From a virus: DNA of 27,210 nucleotides. The translations under genes were made by a program, and so were the position numbers. Numbering within the stretch: position 1 is the stretch's first letter; each line of letters opens with the position of its first letter. The stretch covers positions 1 through 27,210 of the IMG/VR virus record IMGVR_UViG_3300044971_001761; one strand, given 5' to 3'. The notes beneath the pieces were generated by a model that was not told the origin of the DNA, did no database searches, and saw only the letters and a list, made by a program, of their open reading frames with translations. Shown here piece after piece: positions 2,138 to 13,627 of the stretch.

Positions 2138-2451
2138 ACAGCGTCCTCACGTTCCAGATATTTGTAAAAATCTTCATCCGTTTCATATACAAATTCTGTA
2201 CCATCAGCATGAATGCAATGTGGACCAGGAGTTTTGCCTGCCTCAAATTCATATAGAAACCATTCAACACTTTCGGTATAATCACCAAACAATGCACGAA
2301 TCAAAAGAGTACGTTGGATATGACACTGTTCAAAATATTCACTCTCAAAAAAGATACTATTGATATCCCGAGGAACAGAACAAATATATTTGTCCTGCTT
2401 TATATCACTAGCACGTAATTGTCGGACCACATCAATCAATTCTTTATTCAT
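2134..2451 (-). CDS. Unknown phage protein, 105 aa
   Basis: I start at ATG 2451 (MNKELIDVVRQL), which has GGAATTCAAG before it and overlaps the previous stop. An ATG four codons upstream would also be open. The protein is acidic and aromatic-rich (EFVYETDEDFYKYLE near the C terminus), soluble in appearance, and shows no motif I recognise. It is coupled on both sides to neighbours in the operon. Confidence 0.65.
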   Translation of the reverse strand: MNKELIDVVRQLRASDIKQDKYICSVPRDINSIFFESEYFEQCHIQRTLLIRALFGDYTESVEWFLYEFEAGKTPGPHCIHADGTEFVYETDEDFYKYLEREDAV

Positions 2452-2641
2452 CTTGAATTCCAAAACTATCTAAAATATTTGCGCCGATATTCTTTTGACC
2501 GTGATGTTCCATGAGACCGGCAATCAACGCACAGTTCTTTACGATCAACTCGGCAAACTTTTCTGCATTGTCGATACTCATCCACTTGCCGCTGGTGTCT
2601 GTGCCAGCCTGCAACATAAAATCACGAATACAATCATTCAT
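2444..2641 (-). CDS. FAELIV-family small protein, minus-strand copy, 65 aa
   Basis: Starts MNDCIRDFMLQAGTD, holds EKFAELIVKNCA in the centre and ends SFGIQDE. This is the pattern of a paralogous family found five more times on the plus strand (6927, 7608, 12823, 14143, 14618): an N-terminal helix MNxRIKEL, a variable middle, the EKFAxLIVxxCA helix and a C-terminal FGVEE. No function is known for the family. I start at ATG 2641, which overlaps the preceding stop; an extension to 2677 is open but lies inside the upstream gene. Confidence 0.72.
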   Translation of the reverse strand: MNDCIRDFMLQAGTDTSGKWMSIDNAEKFAELIVKNCALIAGLMEHHGQKNIGANILDSFGIQDE

Positions 2642-2771
2642 TTTCAAACTCGGCCATATCGTTAGCGACTTCCTCAACCCACGCCACAGGCACGTTCAGT
2701 GTGTCAGCAACACTCTGCCACGACTCGCCGCGCTCCAGCATATCTTGAATATCCATGTAAAGTTCAGACAT
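2634..2771 (-). CDS. Small helix-turn-helix-like protein, 45 aa
   Basis: Begins MSELYMDIQDMLERGESW and continues QSVADTLNVPVAWVEEV. The spacing of these two helices resembles a minimal helix-turn-helix of the kind seen in short phage proteins, so DNA binding is possible but not shown. GGAGAAATTT precedes the ATG. It is cotranscribed with the upstream nucleotidyltransferase-like gene, 26 bases away, and overlaps the next start. Confidence 0.65.
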   Translation of the reverse strand: MSELYMDIQDMLERGESWQSVADTLNVPVAWVEEVANDMAEFENE

Positions 2772-2797
2772 AAATTTCTCCAGTTAGTTTCTCTATC

Positions 2798-3370
2798 TTA
2801 CAACAAAACGTCATCATTGTCAAGTGTCCATCCACGTTCCAGGAATTTCTGTTGCCTTTTCGCAACAGGCTCTCTACCACCAGGATTTTTTACCAATCTT
2901 TTTGCAGCAATAACTTCAAGTTGTTTTTGTGAAATATAAAATACATTCTCAGCTAAATCCAAATATGGCAAGCAATGTATATAATCAAACTTTTTTCTTT
3001 CAGTGTAATAATCACCCAATGTAATTATTTGAAAGTCATTGATCAGTGTGATGGCATTTTCGGTAATTAGCGGTTGTGAACTTTGTAGATTACCATACTT
3101 TGCAGCCACATCCATGATATAGTCAGAGTAGTCACAAATTATAATGTCGCGCAGGTACTGAATTTTTGCGGGATCACGGAGCCAGAAATCATAGTCTTTT
3201 GGCTCTTCTTTATGATATATTGAAGAGGTACAAGAACCAGACAGAATGCAGCTATCGTGAATCATCCACCACAGCGCCTTAGGCAACAAGTCCTTCTGTT
3301 TATAGAGCTTTAGTACTACATCGCCTTTCAAGGTAGTAGCAGTTTTATTCCAAGATGTATTAGTATTCAT
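2798..3370 (-). CDS. Predicted nucleotidyltransferase-fold protein, 190 aa
   Basis: SGSCTSS at about residues 44-50 followed by PKDYDFWL near residue 60 matches the GS...DxD signature of the DNA polymerase beta nucleotidyltransferase superfamily, in which the two Asp bind metal. The C terminus (KRLVKNPGGREPVAKRQQ, then ERGW) is basic, as in phage relatives. The substrate cannot be read from sequence. This is the first gene of the leftward operon; its ATG lies about 28 bases past the -10 of the promoter at 3399-3427. Confidence 0.6.
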   Translation of the reverse strand: MNTNTSWNKTATTLKGDVVLKLYKQKDLLPKALWWMIHDSCILSGSCTSSIYHKEEPKDYDFWLRDPAKIQYLRDIIICDYSDYIMDVAAKYGNLQSSQPLITENAITLINDFQIITLGDYYTERKKFDYIHCLPYLDLAENVFYISQKQLEVIAAKRLVKNPGGREPVAKRQQKFLERGWTLDNDDVLL

Positions 3371-3398
3371 AAATTATTCTCAAGTACCGACACCGACG

Positions 3399-3427
3399 AT
3401 TCTACGCACATTTCCACCGGTTGTCAA
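3399..3427 (-). promoter_or_regulatory. Sigma70 promoter for the leftward operon
   Basis: On the minus strand TTGACA (3427-3422), a 17-bp spacer and TAGAAT (3404-3399). The spacer differs from the 16-bp cassettes, so this is an independent promoter. It is divergent from the plus-strand cassette at 3462-3489, with the -35 boxes about 35 bp apart. Confidence 0.65.
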
Positions 3428-3461
3428 GTTGTTTTTTTGCAACACCAACATCTTTTACCTA

Positions 3462-3489
3462 TTGACAATTACCATGGGCGTGGTATAAT
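3462..3489 (+). promoter_or_regulatory. Sigma70 promoter cassette 1
   Basis: TTGACA (3462-3467), 16-bp spacer and TATAAT (3484-3489) with TGG before the -10. The leader AGAGCCTTAGACAG resembles that of the other cassettes. It opens the plus-strand island. Confidence 0.88.
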
Positions 3490-3521
3490 AGAGCCTTAGA
3501 CAGACAGAAAGCGAGACCCTA

Positions 3522-3770
3522 ATGCGAACCAAACAGTTGATCCGTGGCTTGAAAAACTCCCAACGTATCCGTGTGATCCTCAATAATGTAGCATTTTTTA
3601 CTACAGCATCGGGGACTGACGATATCATGTATCGTAACCAGCGCATCGCGGTTCAGTTTGCACTGGAGCGTATGGTTAAAGAAAAAATTACCGGACTCGC
3701 GACCACCTTTTCGTGCTACAATGAAAAGATGGAATCCGAGCGTATCCAAGTACAGGTGGACTTAGTATGA
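3522..3770 (+). CDS. Unknown phage protein, 82 aa
   Basis: Begins MRTKQLIRGLKNSQRIRVIL, basic at the N terminus, then mixed. No domain recognised. It is the first gene behind cassette promoter 1, with a weak purine-rich ribosome site (GCGAG). Its stop overlaps the next start as ATGA. Confidence 0.65.
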   Translation: MRTKQLIRGLKNSQRIRVILNNVAFFTTASGTDDIMYRNQRIAVQFALERMVKEKITGLATTFSCYNEKMESERIQVQVDLV

Positions 3771-3928
3771 CAAGAATTCTTTTTTATCGCCTCCAAGCTC
3801 TGGAAGCCTTGCGCTGCACTTCAATGCAAGCCACCAAAATTGGTGATATTTGGTGCGAAGGTTGGATCAGCGAAGCGGACATGGAAACATTCCGACTGAA
3901 TGGCTGGTGGTACGAAGTTCAGAAGTGA
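3767..3928 (+). CDS. Unknown small protein, 53 aa
   Basis: Begins MTRILFYRLQALEALRC and ends WYEVQK, with four Trp in the C-terminal half. The ATG overlaps the preceding stop. Its TGA stop is the first base group of the next promoter cassette (TGAGTACTTTT), a junction repeated across the island. No function assigned. Confidence 0.65.
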   Translation: MTRILFYRLQALEALRCTSMQATKIGDIWCEGWISEADMETFRLNGWWYEVQK

Positions 3929-3943
3929 GTACTTTTACTGTAC

Positions 3944-3971
3944 TTGACAATTACCTAGAACCTGGTATAAT
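3944..3971 (+). promoter_or_regulatory. Sigma70 promoter cassette 2
   Basis: TTGACA (3944-3949), 16 bp, TATAAT (3966-3971). Upstream an inverted repeat AGTAC/GTACT flanks a seven-base loop and starts at the stop codon of the gene before. Confidence 0.9.
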
Positions 3972-4001
3972 AGAGACTTAGAACGAAACGAAGGAATCAA
4001 A

Positions 4002-4169
4002 ATGGATATCACCACGGCAATCGCGCAAATCAACCAAGAAGCCGAACACTTGGGCTTGGGTCTTTTGGAAACACTTCTGGATATCCAAGAGCGTGGTATG
4101 TCAGCATACAGTTATGATACCATGCGCGCCTATCGTGTGTTCATGGCTGAAGGTGCCAAACTTTTCTAA
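4002..4169 (+). CDS. Unknown small protein, 55 aa
   Basis: Begins MDITTAIAQINQEAEHLGLG and is probably all helical. AAGGAA precedes the ATG, and the cassette 2 leader runs straight into it. No motif recognised. Ten bases separate it from the next gene, which has its own AAGGAG-type site. Confidence 0.68.
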   Translation: MDITTAIAQINQEAEHLGLGLLETLLDIQERGMSAYSYDTMRAYRVFMAEGAKLF

Positions 4170-4178
4170 GGAGTAGTT

Positions 4179-4460
4179 ATGAAGCAAAATTATACAATGT
4201 ATATTTACAAAGCCGACCGCCGTTGCAAGACTGGTGAGCGCCTGTTCTCCACTACCGTGTGGCCTAACCGTGATGAAGCCACGATCCGCCGCGAGTGCAA
4301 CGAATTGTATGACCTGTATCCCGCGACAAAAGGGTGGCGCTTTGAATGTCACCCAACCACAATTACCGTCAAAAGTTACATGACTGGCGAGGATGTCCAA
4401 ATCGACCGCGACACACCATGGTGTTGTAATCCTGCGTCAGAATCTTTTTGGTCAATGTAA
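4179..4460 (+). CDS. Conserved-type phage protein, 93 aa
   Basis: Begins MKQNYTMYIYKADRRCKTGE, with an alpha/beta composition and a C-terminal part containing VKSYMTGEDVQI and DTPWCCNP. Proteins with this MYIYKADRRCKTGERL start occur in several T4-like phages as hypotheticals; recognition is by pattern. It is soluble with three cysteines, no paired metal motif, and unknown function. AAGGAG lies before the ATG. Confidence 0.72.
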   Translation: MKQNYTMYIYKADRRCKTGERLFSTTVWPNRDEATIRRECNELYDLYPATKGWRFECHPTTITVKSYMTGEDVQIDRDTPWCCNPASESFWSM

Positions 4461-4467
4461 AAAACGC

Positions 4468-4495
4468 TTGACAAGTCTCCACCAATCTGTATAAT
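4468..4495 (+). promoter_or_regulatory. Sigma70 promoter, diverged cassette 3
   Basis: TTGACA (4468-4473), 16 bp, TATAAT (4490-4495). The spacer (AGTCTCCACCAATCTG) departs from the common form but keeps the 16-bp length, the TG before the -10 and the AGAACC leader. It drives the membrane-protein cluster, and the first ATG lies only 8 bases past the -10. Confidence 0.8.
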
Positions 4496-4502
4496 AGAAC
4501 CT

Positions 4503-4598
4503 ATGAAACTGATTACTGAAATCTTCCAAGCCGCCATCATCGCCACTCTGATGTTTGGTCCTTTCTTTTATTACTTCCTTTTTATGATGAAACCATGA
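4503..4598 (+). CDS. Single-span membrane peptide, 31 aa
   Basis: MKLITEIFQAAIIATLMFGP followed by FFYYFLFMMKP: one hydrophobic helix with a short charged N terminus. The ATG lies so close to the -10 (TATAATAGAACCTATG) that transcription would start at about the start codon, giving a leaderless message, unless read-through transcription supplies a leader. The stop overlaps the next start. Function unknown; small inner-membrane peptides are frequent among phage host-takeover genes. Confidence 0.55.
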   Translation: MKLITEIFQAAIIATLMFGPFFYYFLFMMKP

Positions 4599-4771
4599 TC
4601 CGAGTTATTTTGGCCTGGGCGATCCTAAGCGCCCTCATTGCATTCTTGATTACCATGTTCCGAAGTTTGTCTGGTAAACAAAAATGGCAGTTGACAAAAG
4701 TTGTTGGCTATGCTACAATGTGTTCTCTTATCGCAGTAGCAATTCTTGTTGGTATTGTTGTCCTCTTTTAA
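4595..4771 (+). CDS. Two-span small membrane protein, 58 aa
   Basis: Two hydrophobic helices (about residues 3-20 and 38-57) flank a basic loop containing FRSLSGKQKWQL. This hairpin layout with GKQKWQL in the loop is known to me from hypothetical proteins of T4-like phages. The start overlaps the previous stop. Its central coding part contains a good sigma70 promoter (4691-4719) for the genes downstream. Function unknown. Confidence 0.65.
   Translation: MIRVILAWAILSALIAFLITMFRSLSGKQKWQLTKVVGYATMCSLIAVAILVGIVVLF
4691..4719 (+). promoter_or_regulatory. Possible internal sigma70 promoter upstream of the SPFH gene
   Basis: TTGACA (4691-4696), exactly 17 bp, TACAAT (4714-4719), inside the coding sequence of the 58-aa membrane protein. 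It would transcribe the 28-aa peptide and the SPFH lipoprotein separately from cassette 3. It differs in spacer length and sequence from the cassettes. Confidence 0.45.
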
Positions 4772-4780
4772 GGAGTTATC

Positions 4781-4867
4781 ATGTTCAGTGACCTTTTGCT
4801 AAGGCCCTTGTATTTCATCCTGGGCTTCCTTGTTTGTTTTGTTCTTTTTTCTTTTGGAGTTCTTTAA
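4781..4867 (+). CDS. Single-span membrane peptide, 28 aa
   Basis: MFSDLLLRPLYFILGFL and a further hydrophobic stretch ending FGVL. AAGGAG sits nine bases before the ATG. Its stop and the next start are one base apart, and TTTTGGAG within its last codons is the ribosome site for the SPFH gene, so it may act partly as a coupling leader. Confidence 0.55.
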   Translation: MFSDLLLRPLYFILGFLVCFVLFSFGVL

Positions 4868-4868
4868 T

Positions 4869-5666
4869 ATGAATCGTTACCTGAAACTTGGCGCTATCGC
4901 CGCAGCCGTTGCTTTGACTTCCGCATGTACTCGCATTGAAACTGGTGAGGTCGGTGTTCGTGTCGGCTTTGATAAACAGGTGCAGTCTGGTGAGTTGCTG
5001 CCAGGCTCATTCAACCAAACTATCGTTGGCACTATTTTGACTTTCCCAGTCAAGGACGTTAACGTAGTCCTGGAGAATATGACACCCGTTGCAAAAGACA
5101 ACAGCACCATGAAAGACTTGGACGCTGTGGTTGTTTACAACATCAATCCACAAACCGTTGCTGAACTATACTCCGCAAAGAACAAATCGTTCCACGCAGA
5201 ATTCAAAGGTGACACATATGTGATGTATAACTATGTGGTGCAAAACGCACGGAATGCCATCTACAAAGCCGCACGAAAGTATGAAGCATTGGACATGGCT
5301 GATAACCGCACGGATATGGAAAACTATATCAAGGATGAAATTCAGCGAAACCTTGCTGAGGAAAAACTTGACGGTAGTATCACTATCTCCCAGGTCATGA
5401 TCCGTAACGTATTGCCAAGTGATACAGTGGTAGAATCCGCTAACGCATTGGTTCGTAGCAAAAACGAATTGAAGCAAAAGGAAGTGGAAGTGAAAACTGC
5501 TGAGGCCGAAAGCCGTCGTATGGCTGCATTGGCTAACAACTCAGGCAGTTCCATTGCATTCATGCAAGCACAAGCTATGTTGAATATCTCAGAAGGTATC
5601 AAGAACGGCAAGGTGCAGACAATCGTTGTGCCATCCAACTTCAATGCTTTGATGATGGGTAAGTAA
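4869..5666 (+). CDS. SPFH/Band-7 (prohibitin-stomatin family) lipoprotein, 265 aa
   Basis: The N terminus MNRYLKLGAIAAAVALTSAC is a lipoprotein signal with lipobox TSAC and the lipidated Cys at residue 20. After it come ETGEVGVRVGFDKQV, VKDVNVVLENMTPVAKDN, DAVVVYNINPQTVAELY and the SPFH-type end ISQVMIRNVLPSDTVV, then a charged coiled coil (NELKQKEVEVKTAEAESRRM) and a hydrophobic C terminus, as in prohibitin and HflK/HflC proteins. Bacterial relatives form large membrane rings that restrain the FtsH protease. A phage copy could remodel the inner membrane, guard phage proteins from FtsH, or affect superinfection (inference). I start at ATG 4869, preceded by TTTTGGAG; an in-frame extension to 4830 would lie in the peptide before it. 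Genes around it are small membrane proteins, which fits a membrane module. Confidence 0.85.
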   Translation: MNRYLKLGAIAAAVALTSACTRIETGEVGVRVGFDKQVQSGELLPGSFNQTIVGTILTFPVKDVNVVLENMTPVAKDNSTMKDLDAVVVYNINPQTVAELYSAKNKSFHAEFKGDTYVMYNYVVQNARNAIYKAARKYEALDMADNRTDMENYIKDEIQRNLAEEKLDGSITISQVMIRNVLPSDTVVESANALVRSKNELKQKEVEVKTAEAESRRMAALANNSGSSIAFMQAQAMLNISEGIKNGKVQTIVVPSNFNALMMGK

Positions 5667-5683
5667 ACATTTCGGAGTGGTGA

Positions 5684-6040
5684 ATGAAAGCCTATCTGCA
5701 TGGAAAAATCCACGCTAAAAAATATGGAGGAGTCGCCGATGACTACGCAGACATTGACGACTTCATTGACAGCTCTAAAGCATCGGTTGCAGATGTGCGG
5801 CACCGAGCCGTACTACACTCTGCTTTTGGCTGTTTTGTCGTTGAACAAATGTTCGGTAGAACCAGAATTAATTCAGATGGCAAAGAGTACAGCCCAAGAG
5901 ACATTGCCGAAGACCACATTCAGCAAGACCTAGGCTTCATTCCTACCATGGAAATGTATCTAAACAACATGACGCTCCAACCTTGGATGTCAGGCACAAT
6001 GAAAACCAACCGTAGTAAATTTATCAAACTTGAGGACTAA
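5684..6040 (+). CDS. DUF6915-type phage protein, 118 aa
   Basis: Begins MKAYLHGKIHAKKYGG, with FIDSSKASVADVRHRAVLHS in the middle and YSPRDIAEDHIQQDLG later. The pattern KAYLHG...HAKKYGG...DIDDFIDSSK...HSAFGC...SPRDIAEDHIxxDLG is, as far as I recall, the DUF6915 family of phage and bacterial proteins. Conserved His and Asp residues suggest a metal-dependent fold but no activity is established. GGAGTGGTGA precedes the ATG. Confidence 0.72.
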   Translation: MKAYLHGKIHAKKYGGVADDYADIDDFIDSSKASVADVRHRAVLHSAFGCFVVEQMFGRTRINSDGKEYSPRDIAEDHIQQDLGFIPTMEMYLNNMTLQPWMSGTMKTNRSKFIKLED

Positions 6041-6041
6041 C

Positions 6042-6455
6042 ATGTCAATAATTAAAGCTGGATATCGTATTACCGTCACCTCTTGGGAAAATGACGCAGA
6101 CAATTACAATACCAAAACTGTCGAGGGTTTGAATGAAGATGAAGTTAATTTTCATATTGATCTTTTGAAGTTGATTGTGGGTAGTAACAGCAACGACAAA
6201 ACAGTATTCGGTAACATGTATAATCCTAGGGATAGTGAACTTGAAGCATTTCAGGAAGCTGTTATTAGAGTTTTTCTGAAACATTCACGGCCAGATAGCA
6301 TCTATGAACCTCTAGATATTGCAATGGACATTATCGGCGAGTACACTGGTTATGGTGGTGATGGGTTCTACACCCGTGTAGCAGAATCTATTGTGGTCGA
6401 GTTCGTTCCACAAGAAATTATTATTGAAGACGTATCAACTAAATTTGGAGTTTAA
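6042..6455 (+). CDS. Conserved-type phage protein, 137 aa
   Basis: Begins MSIIKAGYRITVTSWENDAD and contains VFGNMYNPRDSELEAFQEA and GEYTGYGGDGFYTRVAES. Proteins with this YRITVTSWENDADN start occur in many T4-like phages without known function. I start at ATG 6042, preceded by GAGGACTAAC, rather than four codons earlier inside the preceding gene. Acidic, soluble. Confidence 0.75.
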   Translation: MSIIKAGYRITVTSWENDADNYNTKTVEGLNEDEVNFHIDLLKLIVGSNSNDKTVFGNMYNPRDSELEAFQEAVIRVFLKHSRPDSIYEPLDIAMDIIGEYTGYGGDGFYTRVAESIVVEFVPQEIIIEDVSTKFGV

Positions 6456-6457
6456 TC

Positions 6458-6940
6458 ATGAAACAAATCAACGAAATCGAAGCATTGTTCGACCAAATGA
6501 ACGCCGAAATGGAAGAACTGAAAGCGACATACCAGAAACGCGGCCAAGAAATTTTCAAACTTGCATTCAAAGAATTCTTTGATGCAAATCCTGAGGTAAA
6601 GGTTGTCGGCTGGCGTCAATACACTCCATACTTCAATGATGGAGATGCATGTACATTCAATTGCTATGCATCATACGCATTTGTTTCCAATGCAGTGGAC
6701 TATGATAGTGTCCGGTATGGTGAATATGAAGGTGATGATGAAACTGTTTGGATCAATGATCCCGACTATGGTGATCACAATGAAGAATTGATTCCTGATT
6801 CCGTTTCTGCGAATAGTGAAGCATTGCGCAAATTGCTTTCTAAGATTTCGGATGATGTGTTCCTTGACATGTTCGGCGATCACTGCAAGGTGTTTGCGAC
6901 CCGTGAAGGTTTTGATGTTCAAGAATATGACCACGACTAA
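6458..6940 (+). CDS. Unknown acidic phage protein, 160 aa
   Basis: An N-terminal coiled coil (EIEALFDQMNAEMEELKATY) is followed by a globular part with GWRQYTPYFNDGDACTF, a strongly acidic middle (EYEGDDETVWINDPDYGD) and a helical end. It resembles hypothetical proteins of T4-like phages. GGAG lies eight bases before the ATG and the last codons overlap the next gene. An acidic surface of this kind could mimic DNA, but nothing else supports that. Confidence 0.7.
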   Translation: MKQINEIEALFDQMNAEMEELKATYQKRGQEIFKLAFKEFFDANPEVKVVGWRQYTPYFNDGDACTFNCYASYAFVSNAVDYDSVRYGEYEGDDETVWINDPDYGDHNEELIPDSVSANSEALRKLLSKISDDVFLDMFGDHCKVFATREGFDVQEYDHD

Positions 6941-7169
6941 TACGCGAATCCAAGAATTTATTCTGGAAGCAACAGTGACGACTGATGTGTATAATCCTGA
7001 TACAGGTATTACACATTACCGTGAATTCTTTGACCATGAAAAGTTTGCTGAGTTGATTGTGAAGGAATGTGCCGAAGTTGCTCAGATGAACACTCCCGAT
7101 ACCGAGGAGTGTGAATATACACATCTTATCAGTGAAAAGATAAAAGAACATTTCGGAATTGAAGAATGA
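6927..7169 (+). CDS. FAELIV-family small protein, 80 aa
   Basis: MTTTNTRIQEFILEATVTTD starts it, with EKFAELIVKECAEVAQ in the centre and KEHFGIEE at the end. It is one of six clear copies of this family in the window. An upstream ATG at 6915 has the better placed GAAGG and would add four residues (MFKN). The stop overlaps the next ATG. Confidence 0.75.
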   Translation: MTTTNTRIQEFILEATVTTDVYNPDTGITHYREFFDHEKFAELIVKECAEVAQMNTPDTEECEYTHLISEKIKEHFGIEE

Positions 7170-7624
7170 ACGCAACTAACCCTATTGAAACCCTAGCTGG
7201 CTGTATGGCTCATGCCGCATATGTGGCGTTTCCTGAATACAAGTATCAAGACCGCGACTGGGCCAAACATGATAAGTGGCGAGCTACGCTGACGCGAGAA
7301 GAAATGAAAACAGCGGTAGCACCAGCCGATTGTTTTGTTGAGAAGTCTCGCAAGCATTCATTATATGACTTGACTGTGTACAATATGTTTCCACAGACCT
7401 GGAGTAGCACAGCACTAGGCTTCGGTGGGATTGGTGGTCAAGCTATTACCAGTGCATATGTTTGTATCATTGAAAGCGACTTGGTTGGTGGCTTTGCAGT
7501 GTACTTTGGTGGTAGACCGGCTTATGTTATCAACCGACCTAATGAAAAGTTTATAGAAGACATTGAGCGACACCGTATGGTAGATGCCAAGTTAGGAAAG
7601 GCTACGTATGAACGAACGAATTAA
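7166..7624 (+). CDS. Unknown phage protein, 152 aa
   Basis: The first half (MAHAAYVAFPEYKYQDRDW) is helical and aromatic. The second half is glycine-rich and beta-like (TALGFGGIGGQAITSAY, FAVYFGGRPAYVINRP). It looks like a fusion of a short N-terminal module to a conserved phage beta domain, but I cannot name either. Its last 17 bases overlap the next member of the FAELIV family, so the two are coupled. Confidence 0.65.
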   Translation: MNATNPIETLAGCMAHAAYVAFPEYKYQDRDWAKHDKWRATLTREEMKTAVAPADCFVEKSRKHSLYDLTVYNMFPQTWSSTALGFGGIGGQAITSAYVCIIESDLVGGFAVYFGGRPAYVINRPNEKFIEDIERHRMVDAKLGKATYERTN

Positions 7625-7886
7625 AGACCTTGCAAGAGAAGCCGGCTATTACCTTTATGATCTAACTGAAACACATGAAATCAAAACTGTTGAAACTGAC
7701 AGTACAGACGAGTGGATCACATTAGAAAAGTTTGCCGAGCTAATTGTTCAGGAATGTGCTAGAATTGCCAGAGCAACACCTTTTCCAGATACTGATGTTG
7801 AAGTTAGAAAAACGTTCGGACATACATGGGATATGGCTGCTAGTGAAGCTGGTCGTGAAATTGTAAATCATTTTGGAGTTAAGTAA
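7608..7886 (+). CDS. FAELIV-family small protein, 92 aa
   Basis: Begins MNERIKDLAREAGYYLYDL, contains LEKFAELIVQECARIARA and ends IVNHFGVK. This is the longest variable middle of the family. Its first 20 bases are nearly identical to those at 14143 and 14618. Function unknown. Confidence 0.78.
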   Translation: MNERIKDLAREAGYYLYDLTETHEIKTVETDSTDEWITLEKFAELIVQECARIARATPFPDTDVEVRKTFGHTWDMAASEAGREIVNHFGVK

Positions 7887-8050
7887 TGTGGAATAAATTT
7901 AAATCATTGCCGTTGTCTGTGCAGTTATCAATCGGATTCCTAATCGGACTTTTGACTGTTGCCATTATAGTATTTCCGCCAGCGGGTATTGTACTTGGAA
8001 CAATTGTAGCCGGTTTCAGGGTGTTCATCTATTTGACTGATGGTGTGTAA
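7886..8050 (+). CDS. Small membrane protein, 54 aa
   Basis: MWNKFKSLPLSVQLSIGFLI, then a continuous hydrophobic stretch to about residue 45, enough for two close helices (residues 14-29 and 33-47), with PPAG as the turn. The start shares a base with the stop before (TAATG). TTTTGGAG precedes it. Function unknown. Confidence 0.65.
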   Translation: MWNKFKSLPLSVQLSIGFLIGLLTVAIIVFPPAGIVLGTIVAGFRVFIYLTDGV

Positions 8051-8051
8051 T

Positions 8052-8204
8052 ATGAGCAACCTTTGGTTCAATATTAGATTTGGTACCAGACACTGGCAGT
8101 GGGGTCCTGATGGTATGTCATGGAGAGTGAATCCCTATTTTATAGAGAATGCACCCACAAAGTGGTTTGAAATATACTGTTTGTTTGGAAGAGTGCCGGA
8201 ATGA
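8052..8204 (+). CDS. Unknown small protein, 50 aa
   Basis: MSNLWFNIRFGTRHWQWGPD, rich in Trp, ending CLFGRVPE. No family recognised. It is one base after the preceding stop and overlaps the next start by ATGA. The Shine-Dalgarno is poor, so coupling is likely. Confidence 0.55.
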   Translation: MSNLWFNIRFGTRHWQWGPDGMSWRVNPYFIENAPTKWFEIYCLFGRVPE

Positions 8205-8422
8205 CTAAAAAGAAAGAAGCAAAGAAGTTTATGTATGGCGTAGGCTTCTATTGGGAAGGCGATAGCGGTCACGTAGGTCTGTATGCATCTGGTAGCGAAG
8301 TCTTTTATGGCACAATGGAAGAAGCCAAGAACTTCCAAGCATACTGTCAGTCACGCCCAGATAACAGAGGTAAGGAAAAGCGCGAGTATAAGATATTCCA
8401 ACTTATCGAGGTACCAGAGTGA
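8201..8422 (+). CDS. Unknown basic small protein, 73 aa
   Basis: MTKKKEAKKFMYGVGFYWEG, a lysine-rich start then a beta-rich segment and EKREYKIFQLIEVPE. No motif recognised. It belongs to a chain of overlapping genes from 7608 to 9414, each start overlapping or touching the previous stop. Confidence 0.62.
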   Translation: MTKKKEAKKFMYGVGFYWEGDSGHVGLYASGSEVFYGTMEEAKNFQAYCQSRPDNRGKEKREYKIFQLIEVPE

Positions 8423-8637
8423 ATCAACCCATAACATTTTATAACACCAGTTTCACAGGTGTATTACCCACCTCAGCCGTGGGTAAAGGCGTTATAAACA
8501 AAACAGTCTGGGAACAAACCACGTATCCCAATGGCTCAGTAGTCACCAGAAGCTATCATGATACCATTGAAGTGTATGATAAAAATGCAGTCGTGACCAA
8601 ACACAATCAACAAAACATTATAGACATGATGGTATGA
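8419..8637 (+). CDS. Unknown small protein, GTG start, 72 aa
   Basis: Starts with GTG at 8419, which overlaps the TGA of the gene before as GTGA. The peptide MNQPITFYNTSFTGVLPTSA is followed by a beta-rich, polar segment and ends NIIDMMV. No recognised domain. The GTG overlap is the only start in frame that fits the tight spacing. Confidence 0.58.
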   Translation: MNQPITFYNTSFTGVLPTSAVGKGVINKTVWEQTTYPNGSVVTRSYHDTIEVYDKNAVVTKHNQQNIIDMMV

Positions 8638-8828
8638 ACGATAAAGACAATATCAAAGCTGGCGCAGATATGAACGCAGGTGATGGTGGTTATAGAATAG
8701 GCACTCAGGAAGCATATGAGGAGTTTGTAAAGCTCCGAAACGAAGCCATAGCACTAGCCAAAAAAGAAGGTATCAAAGAACGCCACTATACCAACTCAGG
8801 TAAACCGATTGACTTTCCTGATAGATGA
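8634..8828 (+). CDS. Unknown small protein, 64 aa
   Basis: MNDKDNIKAGADMNAGDGGY, then a helical EAYEEFVKLRNEAIALAKKE and the end GKPIDFPDR. Overlaps the previous stop (ATGA) and its last 20 bases overlap the next gene. No function assigned. Confidence 0.58.
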   Translation: MNDKDNIKAGADMNAGDGGYRIGTQEAYEEFVKLRNEAIALAKKEGIKERHYTNSGKPIDFPDR

Positions 8829-9414
8829 CAAAGATGTTTGGCATACATTAGATGCTGACGATCTTTGGATTTATGATAAGCTAATCCTAGCCAAGAAACT
8901 TGGATATAAAGCCGCGCCCGCAGGTGTTCCAGTTGATAGCCCTAATTGGTACATTGTTCGCCCTATAACCAATCTCCGCATGATGAGTCGTGGTGCAGCA
9001 AAGCAATGGCTAACGCCCAATGATGTTAACGCAATTCCAGATGGTTATTTTTGGTGTGAGTTTTTCACTGGTGACCATATCTCAGTAGACTATCATTATG
9101 GTCAACAACACATTTGTGTACAAGGGTTTAGAAACAGTGATAGGCTTGATAGATTTTGCAGATGGACTAAAATAGATAAGCACATTCCAATACCACTTCC
9201 GCTAAAGCACTTATCAGAAAAATACGAATGGATCAATGTAGAGTATGTTGGTGGTAATCCGATTGAAGTCCATGCAAGGTACAATGACGACTTCACCAAC
9301 CATTCATGCAACACTATAATACCCGTTTGGAAAAACGAATCCATTGAGCAACCACCAGGTTCTTCATGGTACGAATCGCCCTCAGCAGAACGATTAGGAT
9401 TTTGGATATACTAA
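8809..9414 (+). CDS. Conserved-type phage protein, 201 aa, TTG start; possibly ATP-grasp-like
   Basis: Contains LILAKKLGYKAAPAGVPV, YIVRPITNLRMMSRGA, the signature IPDGYFWCEFFTGDHISVDY and, near the end, VEYVGGNPIEVHARYNDDF. This order (RPI...SRGA...GYFWCEFF...G..HISVDY...GG.PIEVH.R.N) is shared by phage hypotheticals and recalls the nucleotide-binding halves of ATP-grasp enzymes, but this is an inference from pattern. There is no ATG before codon 54; I use TTG 8809, with CAGG eight bases upstream, inside the end of the previous gene. Confidence 0.66.
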   Translation: MTFLIDDKDVWHTLDADDLWIYDKLILAKKLGYKAAPAGVPVDSPNWYIVRPITNLRMMSRGAAKQWLTPNDVNAIPDGYFWCEFFTGDHISVDYHYGQQHICVQGFRNSDRLDRFCRWTKIDKHIPIPLPLKHLSEKYEWINVEYVGGNPIEVHARYNDDFTNHSCNTIIPVWKNESIEQPPGSSWYESPSAERLGFWIY

Positions 9415-9456
9415 AAGTAATACTTTAGTCTTACACCAAGTTTAGTCAGGTATTGG

Positions 9457-9484
9457 TTGACACTTACCGGAAACCTGGTATAAT
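9457..9484 (+). promoter_or_regulatory. Sigma70 promoter cassette 4
   Basis: TTGACA (9457-9462), 16 bp with ACCGGAAACCTGG, TATAAT (9479-9484) and leader AGAGCCATAGACAG. The upstream ACTTT element is present but lies further away than in other copies. Confidence 0.9.
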
Positions 9485-9513
9485 AGAGCCATAGACAGTA
9501 AGAAAGACAAATC

Positions 9514-9702
9514 ATGGCCTTCGAATCAAAAATCCTCTCCCTTGTTGCTAAAGTCACCACCGATGCTGAATTCACCAGCGGTACTCTTTTCGTGACATGC
9601 ACTCCACGTGAGGCCGCTAAAATCCAAACGATTTTGGAAAATCCCGCTTACGGCGTGATTGTCTCTCCTGTTGGTGATCAATTTGCTTTTGACTTTGTTT
9701 GA
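9514..9702 (+). CDS. Unknown small protein, 62 aa
   Basis: MAFESKILSLVAKVTTDAEF is followed by a beta-alpha-beta-like segment, TPREAAKIQTILENPAYG, and ends FAFDFV. It is the first gene after cassette 4 and has only the purine-rich GAAAGA as ribosome site, as do most first genes after cassettes. No family recognised. Confidence 0.65.
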   Translation: MAFESKILSLVAKVTTDAEFTSGTLFVTCTPREAAKIQTILENPAYGVIVSPVGDQFAFDFV

Positions 9703-9713
9703 TTGGAGTTTTT

Positions 9714-9797
9714 ATGTTTGAATTTTTAGTCGTTGTTTGTGTTGTGTTGGTCTTGGTTGGTGGCACTGTTAGTGGCTCCGTTGAGACCTTAGGTTAA
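9714..9797 (+). CDS. Single-span membrane peptide, 27 aa
   Basis: MFEFLVVVCVVLVLVGGTVS followed by GSVETLG. One hydrophobic helix. GATTGGAG lies eight bases before the ATG. Function unknown; it is one of at least seven tiny membrane proteins in the island. Confidence 0.55.
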   Translation: MFEFLVVVCVVLVLVGGTVSGSVETLG

Positions 9798-9816
9798 TCC
9801 TTTCATTGGAGTTATC

Positions 9817-10113
9817 ATGAAAATCGCTCGGACTATTCTTGATCAAATTGGATATCTAGACCCATGGGCTATGTATGCTTGGGGTGCAGTAGACCTCACT
9901 GATATGGGTGATGGCTTACAATTTAAAACAACTGGTATGACACCATTCAAAGGTTTGGTGTATATCCAATACAAGCCTTGCCCTGACCTGTATAACATCA
10001 CATTTATGCAAGTCCGTAAGGTCAAAGGCGTTCCTACAGTGAAAGTCCGCAAGATAGTGGTGGACGTATATGCTGAGGACTTGATTCGTACCATTGACGA
10101 ATTCGTAGGATGA
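9817..10113 (+). CDS. Conserved-type accessory protein, 98 aa
   Basis: [20 protein letters not shown] and then a beta-rich segment, [20 protein letters not shown] and [15 protein letters not shown]. The frame I..TI.DQ.G......GA.DL......L.F......F.GL..I.....DLY......R..KG.......VYAE.L matches a family of small proteins common on phages and plasmids with unknown function. Its last 36 bases recur at 10776-10812. ATTGGAG precedes the ATG. Confidence 0.68.
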
Positions 10114-10114
10114 T
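10078..10114 (+). repeat. 37-bp duplicated segment, first copy (gene end plus Shine-Dalgarno)
   Basis: This stretch encodes the last residues of the 98-aa protein ([11 protein letters not shown]) and carries the AGGA used by the next gene. It matches 10776-10812 at 36 of 37 positions, the one difference being T10086 against C10784. Confidence 0.9.
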
Positions 10115-10118
10115 CCAA

Positions 10119-10316
10119 ATGAAATTCAAACTAGGTGACACCGTTAGAAAAGTGTCTGGCTCACAGTGGCATGGCACCATTGTGGGAACTTATAGCACCA
10201 AACTTACACCAGAAGGCTATGCTGTGGAAAGTTTCACAGAGGTGGGTTCAGTCCAGATTTATCCAGCTAAGGCGTTGGAACTATTCACACCCAATAAAAA
10301 GAGTACTTCCGACTGA
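10119..10316 (+). CDS. Homologue of type II (R67/DfrB) dihydrofolate reductase, 65 aa
   Basis: The sequence [32 protein letters not shown] and GSVQIYP aligns without gaps to plasmid R67 DHFR at a constant offset of 21. Gln46-Ile47-Tyr48 match the catalytic VQIY residues Gln67, Ile68 and Tyr69; Lys11 matches Lys32, which binds cofactor and substrate; Trp17 matches the interface Trp38. Position 45 of R67 (Trp) is Thr here. R67 is a tetramer of SH3-like barrels that reduces dihydrofolate with NADPH and is insensitive to trimethoprim. It would support phage folate metabolism, though ThyX does not release dihydrofolate, so another role is possible. I start at ATG 10119, eight bases after AGGA, not at 10110 where AGGA abuts the ATG. 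The last codons and TGA come from the promoter cassette. Confidence 0.8.
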
Positions 10317-10317
10317 C

Positions 10318-10345
10318 TTGACAATTACCTATAACCTGGTATAAT
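10318..10345 (+). promoter_or_regulatory. Sigma70 promoter cassette 5
   Basis: TTGACA (10318-10323), 16 bp with ACCTATAACCTGG, TATAAT (10340-10345). The upstream part (GAGTACTTCCGACTGA) codes for the end of the DfrB-like protein, and its TGA is that gene's stop. Confidence 0.92.
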
Positions 10346-10378
10346 AGAGACTTAGATAGAAAGAAACAGGAGTTGGAA

Positions 10379-10756
10379 ATGGCACGTGAAACAGTAGCAC
10401 AACGTAATGCACGATACGCCCAAGAGCGTGAAACATACCTCGCAAAGCAAGTGGATGAATATCCACAGCGCCTCATGCTTGCTCTGGCACGTGCTACAAA
10501 AGCATACTTTGAACTCACTGTAAGTAACAACAACAAGTTCCAACTTACTAACCGTAACGACCGTTATGATTATTTCTCTTTGGCTTACGCACATTCTCCC
10601 GATAGCCAAGAACAATTAGAATCGTTGGAATATGATCTGGATCGCCATGAAGCGGAACTTGCTGAACGTAAGCGCCTGGCCGAAGTAAAGGCAGAGGCAT
10701 TGCGTAAGGTCAATGAATTGTTGACTGCGGAAGAGCGTGAATTGTTGAACTTGTAA
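10379..10756 (+). CDS. Coiled-coil phage protein, 125 aa
   Basis: MARETVAQRNARYAQERETY is followed by helical, heavily charged sequence. Residues about 80-120 (EQLESLEYDLDRHEAELAER and onward) form a likely coiled coil. A CAGGAG site precedes ATG 10379; a TTG six bases upstream is not needed. Function unknown. Confidence 0.68.
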   Translation: MARETVAQRNARYAQERETYLAKQVDEYPQRLMLALARATKAYFELTVSNNNKFQLTNRNDRYDYFSLAYAHSPDSQEQLESLEYDLDRHEAELAERKRLAEVKAEALRKVNELLTAEERELLNL

Positions 10757-10775
10757 ATACTGAGTACTTTCCACT

Positions 10776-10812
10776 GACTTGATCCGTACCATTGACGAAT
10801 TCGTAGGATGAT
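10776..10812 (+). repeat. 37-bp duplicated segment, second copy, fused to a promoter cassette
   Basis: It copies 10078-10114 with one mismatch. Directly upstream is the left half of a promoter cassette (GAGTACTTTCCACTGACTTGA), but after TTGA the sequence changes to the gene-end copy, so this cassette has lost its -35, spacer and -10. The copy still supplies AGGA to the next gene. Confidence 0.85.
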
Positions 10813-10815
10813 ATT

Positions 10816-11019
10816 ATGAAACTGAATAAATTTATTGAACAATTGCAAAAACTCCAAACCGAGGGTCATGGCGATAAGGAAGTTTTCTATCGGCACGGCG
10901 CCTCAGGTGATTGTGGTCCATTGTCCTCAGCATTCATTACCGATGAAGTAGATGGTGATTGTGGTCCATTTGACCTAGACGAAGGTGAAGAGTATGTTTC
11001 CATCTATGCAGGAAATTGA
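10816..11019 (+). CDS. Conserved-type small acidic protein, 67 aa
   Basis: MKLNKFIEQLQKLQTEGHGD followed by a repeat of DCGP (GDCGPLSS, GDCGPFDL) and an acidic end. Proteins of the form LxxFIxxLQxLxxEGHGDxxV are common in phages with unknown role. It has no promoter of its own; AGGA comes from the duplicated segment. Its TGA begins the next cassette. Confidence 0.7.
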   Translation: MKLNKFIEQLQKLQTEGHGDKEVFYRHGASGDCGPLSSAFITDEVDGDCGPFDLDEGEEYVSIYAGN

Positions 11020-11034
11020 GTACTTTTCACTGAC

Positions 11035-11062
11035 TTGACAATTACCTATAACCTGGTATAAT
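11035..11062 (+). promoter_or_regulatory. Sigma70 promoter cassette 6
   Basis: TTGACA (11035-11040), 16 bp with ACCTATAACCTGG, TATAAT (11057-11062), leader AGAGCCATAGACAGAAAGA. Its spacer is identical to cassette 5. Confidence 0.93.
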
Positions 11063-11087
11063 AGAGCCATAGACAGAAAGATTCCAA

Positions 11088-11312
11088 ATGACCAAACAAT
11101 TCGTCCAAGTCAGTGCCCACAAAGATAGCAATAACTTTGCTCACTGGAGCAATCTGAGTATCATGGCAAGCATGGGTCTGACTGCTGAACAGGCCCTGCG
11201 CCGCTTGCAAGCCATGGCTGATAACTACGCACTGAACGGATATACCATTGAGTGGATCCGTGAGGATTTTGATGCCGCTTACGAAGAAATGTACGGAGAC
11301 CTGTTTGTATGA
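11088..11312 (+). CDS. Unknown small protein, 74 aa
   Basis: MTKQFVQVSAHKDSNNFAHW and a helical centre (LTAEQALRRLQAMADNYALN), ending YEEMYGDLFV. It is the first gene of cassette 6 and overlaps the next start by ATGA. No function known. Confidence 0.66.
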   Translation: MTKQFVQVSAHKDSNNFAHWSNLSIMASMGLTAEQALRRLQAMADNYALNGYTIEWIREDFDAAYEEMYGDLFV

Positions 11313-11515
11313 CAAAAGTATACACTGTAGAGTTCCATGACAAGACTATGGACTTCCGTCTGGTGCGATGGACAACCATTAGCCCAGGTATTCGCTCAGG
11401 TGAAGACCTGAAACGGTTTGATTCCGAGGACGAAGCTATGAAAGTGGCGGACTGGATGAACGTGGGCGAAGAGTGGGACCTGTACCACCACCAATTGTGT
11501 GAATTTGATAATTGA
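11309..11515 (+). CDS. Unknown small protein, 68 aa
   Basis: MTKVYTVEFHDKTMDFRLVR then RFDSEDEAMKVADWMNVGE, ending HHQLCEFDN; likely a small alpha/beta domain. The stop TGA is the first triplet of the next cassette (TGAGTACTTTT). Confidence 0.66.
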   Translation: MTKVYTVEFHDKTMDFRLVRWTTISPGIRSGEDLKRFDSEDEAMKVADWMNVGEEWDLYHHQLCEFDN

Positions 11516-11530
11516 GTACTTTTACTGTAC

Positions 11531-11558
11531 TTGACAATTACCAGAAACCTGGTATAAT
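11531..11558 (+). promoter_or_regulatory. Sigma70 promoter cassette 7
   Basis: TTGACA (11531-11536), 16 bp with inverted repeat ACCAG-AAAC-CTGGT running into the -10, TATAAT (11553-11558), leader AGAACCATACCAGA. Upstream inverted repeat AGTAC/GTACT. Confidence 0.93.
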
Positions 11559-11585
11559 AGAACCATACCAGATAGAAAGACACCA

Positions 11586-11741
11586 ATGAGAACTTACCAA
11601 GCATTCTACAAAAACCGCGTTATCACCGTAACTGCATCCACCTCATATGAGGCGCAGTTGAAAGCCGCAGCCGTGTTCAAGGCACGTAAGTCCTATGATG
11701 TGGCTATCGTGTTGGCTGATACACCCGTTTTTATTGATTGA
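11586..11741 (+). CDS. Conserved-type small phage protein, 51 aa
   Basis: MRTYQAFYKNRVITVTASTS, then YEAQLKAAAVFKARKSYDVA. The pattern TSYEAQ.KAA..FKA.KSYDV is frequent in phage proteins of unknown function. GAAAGACACCA lies before the ATG, and an AAGGAA after it serves the next gene. Confidence 0.72.
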   Translation: MRTYQAFYKNRVITVTASTSYEAQLKAAAVFKARKSYDVAIVLADTPVFID

Positions 11742-11753
11742 AGGAAACCTACC

Positions 11754-12265
11754 ATGAATGACAAAGAAGCATTGAAGCTGGCGCTGGAGGCGTTGGAGTG
11801 GAACATGGACTATCTACCATCGCAAGGTCACGGCACATCAATGGCGAGTAAAGCCATCACCGCCATCAAGCAAGCCCTTGAAGCACCTGTGCAGAAACGC
11901 CCACCCAACTGTGGAACGGGCTATTGTTCGTGCGTTGAATGCGTGATGGAACCCGCAGCACAGCCAGCACAGCAAGAGCCGATTAACGTAGCGCAAGCCT
12001 ATGCGATGGCTCAGGTCTGCTTAGATTTGCATGATGCCCTCGGCTGCAAGTGGGGTGACAACCCGTATCTTGCAATAGACCGACTCAAAACCGCAGCACC
12101 TGTGCAGGAGCCTGTGGCGTGGCGTGGCGTGTGAGATTCCACTACGGCACGGATGGTATGGCTAAACGAATTGGTGATTGGAAACTTTATGGATATTCAC
12201 CGACTCCCGAGGAAGACAAAGAAATCGAACCCCTCTACACCACCCCACCCCAGAACCATGTTTGA
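11754..12265 (+). pseudogene. Prophage-type KEALKLALEALE protein, frameshifted
   Basis: The intact frame (11754-12134, 126 aa) begins MNDKEALKLALEALEWNMDY and has AITAIKQALEAPVQ, a cysteine pair region (CGTGYCSCVEC) and AAPVQEPVAWRGV, then a stop. This is the layout of small proteins common in Burkholderiales and other proteobacterial prophages, which normally continue past EPVAW to a PLYTTPP end. That end is here in another frame (12131-12265: FHYGTDGMAKRIGDWKLYGY, then EPLYTTPPQNHV). The break falls in three tandem copies of GTGGC, suggesting slippage. The base composition is richer in G and C than the neighbours. The 126-aa product may still be made. Confidence 0.72.
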
Positions 12266-12374
12266 CTTTATACTAGCCTTGATACAGGCCATTTTGATTT
12301 TCCTGATCCTATCTTTATGGGTGATGTTAGCCGTCATACCTGGAATCTACCACCTAGTGAAATTAGTACTTTAG
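12258..12374 (+). CDS. Single-span membrane peptide, 38 aa
   Basis: MFDFILALIQAILIFLILSL and a further hydrophobic segment ending IYHLVKLVL. The ATG overlaps the last codons of the frameshifted gene (CATGTTTGA). No clear Shine-Dalgarno. Its stop TAG overlaps the start of the next cassette. Function unknown. Confidence 0.5.
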   Translation: MFDFILALIQAILIFLILSLWVMLAVIPGIYHLVKLVL

Positions 12375-12380
12375 TCTGAC

Positions 12381-12408
12381 TTGACAATTACCAGAAACCT
12401 GGTATAAT
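12381..12408 (+). promoter_or_regulatory. Sigma70 promoter cassette 8
   Basis: TTGACA (12381-12386), 16 bp with ACCAGAAACCTGG, TATAAT (12403-12408), leader AGAGCCATACACCAGAG. Confidence 0.92.
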
Positions 12409-12436
12409 AGAGCCATACACCAGAGAAGGAAAGAAC

Positions 12437-12673
12437 ATGTACACAACAATTTGGTCAGGCCGCAATGTCCGTGCTGCACTGACAGTAAAGGTGCTCCAAG
12501 AGTCACCAGCAGCTATCAAATTTGTAGTAGCAGATAATGAAAAAGCTACCTTTTGGTTGCCAAAGAAAGCATTGAAAATGGTGGATGAATGCTATGACTT
12601 AGCATTTTGGTTCACAAAAGGTGAGTACCTGGCCAGTCTGTTCAACCGCTATGCTAACCACTATAAGACTTAA
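12437..12673 (+). CDS. Unknown phage protein, 78 aa
   Basis: MYTTIWSGRNVRAALTVKVL followed by a beta strand segment and WLPKKALKMVDECYDLAFW. No recognised family. GAAGGAAAGAAC precedes the ATG. It is first after cassette 8, and the next gene is ten bases on. Confidence 0.68.
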   Translation: MYTTIWSGRNVRAALTVKVLQESPAAIKFVVADNEKATFWLPKKALKMVDECYDLAFWFTKGEYLASLFNRYANHYKT

Positions 12674-12682
12674 TAGGAGAAA

Positions 12683-12826
12683 ATGATGTTAATGATTAGT
12701 TTGATTTTGTATGCCGTCCTTGGCCTAGTGCTGGGTCTTTTGGGTATCAATGTGATTGAAAAGCCCATTGAATTCATAGCGATTATGGCTCTAGTCGCAA
12801 TGATTGATTTGAAGGGAAGTATGTGA
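12683..12826 (+). CDS. Small membrane protein, 47 aa
   Basis: MMLMISLILYAVLGLVLGLL forms a first helix and FIAIMALVAMIDL a second, with INVIEKPIE between. AGGAGAAAA precedes the ATG. The stop TGA overlaps the GTG of the following gene. Function unknown. Confidence 0.62.
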   Translation: MMLMISLILYAVLGLVLGLLGINVIEKPIEFIAIMALVAMIDLKGSM

Positions 12827-13035
12827 GTGAACGAATAAAAGAACTTGCTGAACAGGCTACTAGAAGCAAATACTGGAATGCCACAACTCAGGTAATGATT
12901 GAAGATTTTGATAAAGAAAAGTTCGCCCAGTTGATTGTGGCAGAATGTGCCGAGATTGCACTTACTGATGGACAAGCAACTGGTAACTTTGAGGTCTTCA
13001 ATAAGATTACAAAACATTTCGGAGTTGAAGAATGA
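12823..13035 (+). CDS. FAELIV-family small protein, GTG start, 70 aa
   Basis: Begins MSERIKELAEQATRSKYWNA, contains KEKFAQLIVAECAEIAL and ends KHFGVEE. It starts at GTG 12823, overlapping the previous stop, where other copies have ATG. The last 24 bases match those at 14618's gene almost exactly. Confidence 0.78.
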   Translation: MSERIKELAEQATRSKYWNATTQVMIEDFDKEKFAQLIVAECAEIALTDGQATGNFEVFNKITKHFGVEE

Positions 13036-13364
13036 ACGTTAAAGCATTGTACCGCTGCACCGATTGCGGCCATGAACAAACCGTAACAGAAATCCATACC
13101 GAAGACGGTAGTGTCTATGTGGGTAGTGGCGCCAACTGGTGTGACGAATGCATGGATGGTCTTCCGGAACGAGTAGAGCCCAGGGAAAAAACCCTACTAG
13201 GTAAAGTCCTCACACAAGAGCACCACGACTACCTAATCCAACTGAGGGATTCTGGTGCCACCAACATGTGGGGAGCTACACCCTATATTGAACGGGAGTT
13301 TGGTGTACCGTACGTGGATGCAAAGGCCATTCTATTGGAGTGGATTGAGTATATGTCCAAGTGA
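13032..13364 (+). CDS. Zinc-ribbon protein with helical C-terminal domain, 110 aa
   Basis: MNVKALYRCTDCGHEQTVTE carries the first CxxC (residues 9-12) and WCDEC at about residues 36-40 the second, a likely zinc ribbon. The C-terminal half (LTQEHHDYLIQLRDSGATNM, YIEREFGVPYVDAKAILLEW) resembles short phage helical proteins found alone elsewhere, so this may be a fusion. Role unknown; RNA or DNA contact is possible. Its TGA starts the next cassette. Confidence 0.68.
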   Translation: MNVKALYRCTDCGHEQTVTEIHTEDGSVYVGSGANWCDECMDGLPERVEPREKTLLGKVLTQEHHDYLIQLRDSGATNMWGATPYIEREFGVPYVDAKAILLEWIEYMSK

Positions 13365-13379
13365 GTACTTTTGATGTAC

Positions 13380-13407
13380 TTGACAATTACCAGAATCCTG
13401 GTATAAT
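13380..13407 (+). promoter_or_regulatory. Sigma70 promoter cassette 9
   Basis: TTGACA (13380-13385), 16 bp with inverted repeat in ACCAGAATCCTGG, TATAAT (13402-13407), leader AGAACCATACCAAGACGAAAG. Upstream AGTAC/GTACT inverted repeat. Confidence 0.93.
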
Positions 13408-13614: not shown

Positions 13615-13627
13615 ATAAGGAAATACC

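Follow-up and report, generated by a model that had tools for sequence, protein, structure and literature searches.

The window, that is the whole stretch of 27,210 nt analyzed here, is a 27.2 kb fragment of a viral contig encoding a ribonucleotide reductase and further phage metabolism genes. A comparison with 50,697 phage records gave no DNA relatives for its positions 2500-14500 or 14500-27210. Of eight large contigs with close relatives of the window SPFH gene, four encoded a T4-type capsid protein (PF07068), so T4-like myoviruses are probably part of the group. The four ORFs of 31, 58, 28 and 265 aa that the initial annotation had placed at this locus were all present, and the following features were assigned:

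4468..4495, + strand: perfect sigma-70 promoter TTGACA-N16-TATAAT upstream of the cassette (exact match)
4503..4598, + strand: hydrophobic ORF of 31 aa, doubtful or clade-specific, which would be nearly leaderless (ORF list)
4595..4771, + strand: two-helix membrane hairpin of 58 aa, the conserved SPFH partner (comparison and model)
4691..4719, + strand: putative internal sigma-70-type promoter TTGACA-N17-TACAAT in hairpin codons 33-34 and 40-42 (synonymous conservation)
4781..4867, + strand: one-helix peptide of 28 aa, optional third member (comparison of loci)
4869..5666, + strand: exported SPFH/Band_7 protein of 265 aa, phrog_200 (HMM matches and model)
4869..4928, + strand: predicted lipoprotein signal ending at the lipobox Cys20 (read from the sequence)
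4932..5510, + strand: SPFH (Band_7) domain, residues 22-214 (Pfam HMM)

The stop of the 31-aa ORF overlaps the ATG of the hairpin gene. The SPFH frame starts at TTG 4830 in the ORF list, and the ATG at 4869 gives the protein of 265 aa. The gene 3' of the cassette (5684-6040) encodes a DUF6915 protein (E 1.9e-38) and was not found adjoining SPFH in 60 relatives.

The 265-aa product had been described as a Band-7/SPFH protein with a lipobox, and this was borne out by a score of 65.4 bits against Pfam Band_7 (PF01145, curated cut-off 23.6) and by the N-terminal ...LTSAC, in which Cys20 was read from the sequence. The protein also matched phrog_200 (lipoprotein, E 2.5e-31), a family that holds proteins of Vi01, N4 and RCS47 as well as MbpS. 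A structure model built from 54 sequences (pLDDT 77.1, pTM 0.58) comprised the SPFH domain and two long C-terminal helices. Foldseek matched this model to HflK (6.8e-12), prohibitin (2.8e-11) and QmcA (8.9e-8), and VIA gave a Z of 16.4 to prohibitin (rmsd 5.0 over 210) and of 15.6 to HflK 7vhq (rmsd 6.7 over 238); erlin and stomatin were also resembled. A profile search of solved structures placed HflK first (5.5e-8), followed by QmcA and HflC. The ring-forming parts supposed earlier for this protein appear to be present in the model, its predicted SPFH domain and two long helices matching the subunits of the solved rings of HflK, prohibitin, erlin and stomatin.

The lipobox Cys was conserved throughout the 82 loci of the window cluster. 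The residue at +2 after this Cys was Thr in 81 of them and Ser in one, whereas the P1-like cluster had Asp here in 80 of its 84 members. In E. coli, Thr at +2 would target a lipoprotein to the outer membrane and Asp is the inner-membrane signal, so the membrane in which the SPFH protein resides may differ between the clades. Several other SPFH clusters had an N-terminal hydrophobic segment in place of the lipobox Cys, and the basic start before this segment suggests that these proteins also face away from the cytoplasm.

Close relatives of the SPFH protein were detected in 460 stretches of viral contigs; the best 80 of the 460 were fetched, thus the counts for the window clade describe close relatives. 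Among the 60 window-clade loci with full flanks, tblastn located a hairpin relative directly upstream of SPFH in 49, while five flanking genes lay within 1.6 kb of SPFH in 3, 4, 0, 0 and 0 loci. The hairpin and SPFH genes were separated by about 97 nt where the 28-aa gene was present and by about 10 nt where it was missing. When the hairpin was used as the query, 23 of 24 loci had SPFH 9-13 or 97-98 nt downstream, at least eight of the 24 being contigs already in the SPFH set, and the hairpin of the 24th locus was truncated. Since the pairing persisted in both search directions while the neighbourhoods changed, the hairpin and SPFH genes travel together as a cassette. A strict rule for the hairpin (ATG start, 50-62 aa) left 9 of the 80 loci without one; it missed the hairpins of L037 and L032 (the same loci as L266 and L265, respectively), which have a GTG start, and that of L033 (L284), which is broken at its start.

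The 28-aa peptide is an optional member of the cassette. It was present in 34 of 80 window-clade loci and was found by tblastn in 26 of the 60 loci with full flanks, and its differences by codon position numbered 1784/1011/2420. The 31-aa ORF occurred within 1.6 kb of SPFH in 3 of the 60 loci, which were the closest relatives only. This ORF begins 7 nt past the -10 of the perfect promoter at 4468-4495 and no Shine-Dalgarno sequence was found among the motifs checked; behind the other plus-strand perfect promoters the first ORF lay at 21-33 nt (an ORF was found for 10 of 11). As a module part it was retained as doubtful only; it would be nearly leaderless. Conservation of the three tiny membrane genes next to SPFH, on which the earlier proposal had been made to depend, was found for the 58-aa hairpin, in part for the 28-aa peptide, and not for the 31-aa ORF.

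The pairing was then compared across phages generally, using SPFH genes gathered from named phages and further viral contigs, the clusters of which reflect the choice of queries. A partner was defined as an ORF of 35-110 aa with two TM segments, called by a Kyte-Doolittle window, ending at -120 to +60 relative to the SPFH start, and a cluster was scored positive if at least half of its loci had such an ORF. The cluster count required at least 350 nt of upstream sequence, which left 246 of 256 loci. A two-TM gene was located directly upstream in 21 of 28 SPFH clusters (60% identity), compared with 14 of 457 control genes, the controls being ATG ORFs of at least 90 aa that we called ourselves in the same loci and not annotated genes. 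At other clustering levels the partner was detected in 62 of 69 (90% identity) and 11 of 17 clusters (45%). The paired clusters included N4, SSU5, P1-like, Vi1 and Acinetobacter T4-like kinds of phage, and several partners were unannotated in the records (phiEa2809, RCS47 and Pokken). Among the seven clusters without a two-TM gene at the tested site, one had it a gene further up, two had a one-TM gene and the remainder had nothing; the exceptions comprised AM24 and Herod, PaP4 and MbpV (one TM), HCTV-10, a faecal contig and L216. Conserved neighbours alone are no proof of a complex.

The SPFH protein of Pokken was matched by 680 of 50,697 phage records, and SPFH relatives were also found in haloarchaeal and staphylococcal viruses. 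A cellular donor was considered and rejected, the 61% relative occurring in one of 129 genomes of its order, where phage capture or a binning error is likelier. This clearest chromosomal-looking relative (L257, 3612-4406, 61% identity) lies in a Bacteriovoracaceae MAG, and no two-TM partner was noticed beside it; judged by eye, its neighbours are presumably a rhodopsin and a carotenoid-cleaving enzyme. A second, partial match of this kind was detected in a Quisquiliibacterium MAG (L258).

The model of the 58-aa hairpin consisted of helices 2-24 and 27-57 (mean pLDDT 80.6). Two charge classes of partner were distinguished. A basic loop with neutral ends was found in the window, BUCT-ZZ01, Vi01 and Ea2809, and a neutral loop with a basic C-terminus in N4, SSU5, RCS47, 4MG and DSS3P8; the partners of Acinetobacter phages carried charge in both loop and C-terminus. 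The sense of membrane insertion is governed by the positive-inside rule, thus the first two classes would insert in opposite senses. Homology of the partners across clades was not upheld, as a convincing BLAST match was missing for most pairs; matching pairs were some among N4/SSU5/Klebsiella/4MG, AB441/Navy71 and S-CREM1/B23. The N4 and SSU5 partners belong to phrog_1130, in the category moron/host takeover.

Over 690 pairs from 38 loci, the mean nonsynonymous difference was 0.39 for the hairpin and 0.10 for SPFH, while the synonymous differences were close to each other (0.67 and 0.63). Most simply, an adaptor varies on a scaffold that stays constant; weak constraint on lipid-facing residues would also fit the fast change of the hairpin. 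Small proteins with a common FAELIV..CA segment that end in or near FG[VI] are encoded elsewhere in the window, at 2444-2677 (minus strand), 6816-7169 and 7608-7886. In relatives, an FG[VI]-like ending (GGAGTTGAAGA) directly precedes the hairpin ATG and could be its ribosome site.

The window contained 13 exact TTGACA-N16-TATAAT sites, compared with 0.01 expected in shuffles. One is located at 814-841 on the minus strand and 12 on the plus strand between 3462 and 16500. In most of the 13, TGG precedes the -10 and the spacer is a common one (AATTACC...CCTGG), which makes them a repeated, presumably early, promoter element. The site in front of the cassette (4468-4495) was at the same place only in L003-L005. 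The internal candidate within the hairpin gene matched the consensus at 11 of 12 positions, and 44 of 56 distinct hairpin genes scored at least 11 of 12 at the same codons, where synonymous resampling with SPFH-gene codon usage expects 0.57 of 56. Synonymous conservation was calculated from 41 hairpin representatives with less than 85% nucleotide identity against the hairpins' own codon usage; z reached 23.8, 10.6, 10.3 and 6.3 at codons 33, 34, 40 and 41 and at most 0.7 in the spacer codons 35-39, these values not being probabilities since the hairpin sequences are related. With peaks at the -35 and -10 codons and none in the spacer, the internal promoter proposed earlier at 4691 is real by evolutionary criteria.

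Smaller synonymous peaks were observed at codon 2, at codons 44-45, which is about where transcription would start, and at codons 56-57, towards what may be the next ribosome site. The hairpins contain ATA, a rare codon that the SPFH genes use at 10 of their 1,167 Ile positions, and rare codons of this kind are hard to explain except by the promoter. The LT and I of an apparent LTK...YSI hairpin motif were conserved mainly where the promoter was also conserved, and hairpins with VTK instead of LTK had no internal site. The embedded promoter clearly exemplifies a protein sequence that has been shaped by a regulatory site. L274-L276 and L281 belong to a hairpin subfamily that lacks the usual promoter; in these an 11-of-12 site was located 12 nt downstream, possibly reflecting promoter turnover. 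A common promoter motif in other clades was not supported, the best sites within 350 nt upstream being near shuffle level in most of the 43 loci scored (a 44th, L092, was left out for want of a position); 11-of-12 upstream sites were present in L047, L067, L084, L085, L205 and L211.

The cassette was compared with known systems. It resembles HflK/HflC in the SPFH fold, the long C-terminal helices, the domain outside the cytoplasm and the best profile match, but the window clade has a single gene with a lipobox in place of the N-terminal TM segment. NfeD-SPFH operons such as QmcA-YbbJ (PDB 8z5g) likewise encode a small membrane partner in one operon with SPFH, as described in the available text of PMC2636767. 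QmcA was among the matches of the window protein, and the partner encoded beside SPFH, as counted above, agrees with this type. However, the phage partner has 53-92 aa in most clades, without room for the NfeD domain: in the window, the two helices fill the 58 aa and leave no soluble (OB-type) domain, and NfeD was absent from the Pfam hits of 30 hairpin-family members. In the Kayvirus pair MbpV-MbpS, the gene of a small membrane protein overlaps the SPFH gene and MbpS belongs to phrog_200 (PMC7150955, in the part available), but MbpV has one TM segment, MbpS has an N-terminal TM, and an embedded promoter was not found. N4 gp19-gp20 and SSU5_061-062 also have a two-TM gene directly before an SPFH lipoprotein, whereas their neutral loop and basic C-terminus give a charge pattern opposite to that of the window hairpin. 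SPFH ORFs have been reported in the T4-like phages 44RR, Aeh1 and RB43, where the available text lists them as Pfam hits only (PMC1524935). None of the four proteins matched a PADLOC defence model, and a known anti-phage defence system was rejected.

The function of phage SPFH proteins has been called poorly understood (PMC7760394) and unclear, with adsorption and entry proposed (PMC13239085), while lysogeny by analogy (PMC8540360) and help to secretion (PMC7150955) have been suggested elsewhere, as far as the available portions of these four papers go. An SPFH protein with an operon partner is already known. The general pairing with a small partner and the embedded promoter were not found in the open-licence literature searched, within which the phage version, its partner being only a hairpin whose gene embeds a promoter, is new.

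We propose that the exported SPFH protein forms a ring which, together with its membrane partner, acts on the inner membrane of the host early in takeover, a reading to which we give a probability of about one half. It draws on the gene pairing and the selection on the embedded promoter, together with the predicted folds of hairpin and SPFH. The mobile phage cassette of two, sometimes three, genes would supply an inner-membrane hairpin, the optional one-helix peptide and the exported SPFH protein. To judge from their consensus, host-type sigma-70 promoters probably express it early, and the promoter inside the hairpin gene would give SPFH its own transcript, so SPFH could be made in excess over the hairpin. 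The SPFH subunits most likely form a dome that covers the inner membrane from outside, fixed there by its lipid anchor and by a presumed contact with the hairpin, which would be a membrane-embedded partner as NfeD-type proteins are to QmcA-type SPFH proteins. Thr at +2 in the window clade counts against inner-membrane residence under the E. coli rule. Such a dome would wall off a patch of the inner membrane with its proteins, and the likeliest benefit is to protect or alter this membrane while the host is taken over, with the exclusion of later phages included. Membrane protection or exclusion is the most likely output, at lower odds than the architecture itself.

As a wider model, tailed phages may share a membrane-compartment system in which a constant exported SPFH ring is combined with a fast-evolving, exchangeable hairpin adaptor, a design that would have arisen by convergence with NfeD-SPFH and HflK/C-FtsH pairs. 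For the window clade, the ring would be driven by the promoter embedded in the hairpin gene, and part of the hairpin motif would be that promoter. We rate this model at slightly under even odds. Phage SPFH proteins are common, usually with a small membrane partner that is sometimes unannotated, also in model phages such as N4. The cassette would suggest a widespread means by which phages manage the membrane of the host at an early stage of infection, and the finding of the partner makes SPFH function testable by a two-gene deletion in a laboratory phage.

Other explanations were weighed against this reading. The SPFH protein could be a decoy or an extra subunit for host HflK/HflC that alters FtsH proteolysis and spares phage membrane proteins or regulators. 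The order of the solved-structure profile matches and export like that of HflK/C agree with such a role, as does the existence of temperate carriers (P1-like phages and a Klebsiella phage with a CII-type repressor). However, the window protein had no hit to the HflC equivalog TIGR01932 and N4 gp20 reached 20.7 against a cut-off of 134.4, the haloarchaeal and staphylococcal viruses carry SPFH as well, and the hairpin and the embedded promoter would be left unexplained. One Band_7 match was detected in each of the eight large contigs, so the two-gene arrangement of HflK/C is absent, and the available text of PMC8540360 treats some carriers as strictly lytic. The link to FtsH and the lysis-lysogeny choice drawn by the initial annotation is thus unsupported, and we consider a decoy role unlikely. 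A lysis-timing module, with the hairpin as a holin or anti-holin controlled by SPFH, appears distinctly less probable. The 58-aa protein showed weak holin similarity (phrog_126, E 0.0067; TIGR01594, E 0.052), the Kayvirus pair lies beside an endolysin and a resemblance of MbpV to holins has been noted (PMC7150955, available part), but most other inspected loci sit among small genes away from annotated lysis genes. The holin scores were below the curated cut-offs (PF05106, 12.9 vs 23.8; TIGR01594, 13.8 vs 55.05), and a phrog_126 match at E 0.1 or better was obtained for only 3 of 30 hairpin-family members. The holin reading of the hairpin was therefore rejected, the initial similarity not being sustained over the 30 members.

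A little less probable again is that the hairpin ORF serves chiefly as a leader carrying the promoter and that its product has no role with SPFH. The joint conservation of LT and I with the promoter would be expected of a leader, but the length stays near 58 aa, K35, Y39, V55 and F58 are conserved at 0.93-1.00 independently of the promoter hexamers, and clades lacking such a promoter have a two-TM partner as well. Peptides of SPFH have been reported from purified virions of Sajous1 (3 spectra, PMC10892097), of an Erwinia jumbo phage (low count, PMC6034870) and of Eneladusvirus (no counts given in the available text, PMC7760394), as would be expected if SPFH were a virion-associated protein for DNA entry. 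The counts are minimal where given, the Sajous1 table warns of cellular contamination (PMC10892097, available part) and an abundant membrane protein is a likely contaminant, thus we regard DNA entry as the least probable of these roles.

Returning to the proposed ring on the host inner membrane, a gene related to superinfection exclusion was observed near the cassette in unrelated phages of N4-type, Vi1-type and Ea2809. N4 gp18, which adjoins the cassette, shares 63.6% identity with P22 gp17, a protein that bears the label superinfection exclusion. Relatives of P22 gp17 were located 0.5-1 kb upstream of SPFH in ten kuttervirus loci and 1.7 kb downstream in Ea2809, and the window had no hit to these proteins. 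The P22-gp17-like genes lie at 1880-2194 in L192, 4170-4490 in L083 and 5721-6194 in L090. Near the cassette of two Synechococcus phages (L082, 480-3250; L091, 5667-8789), NAD-salvage genes encoding nicotinamide-nucleotide adenylyltransferase and nicotinamide phosphoribosyltransferase were observed.
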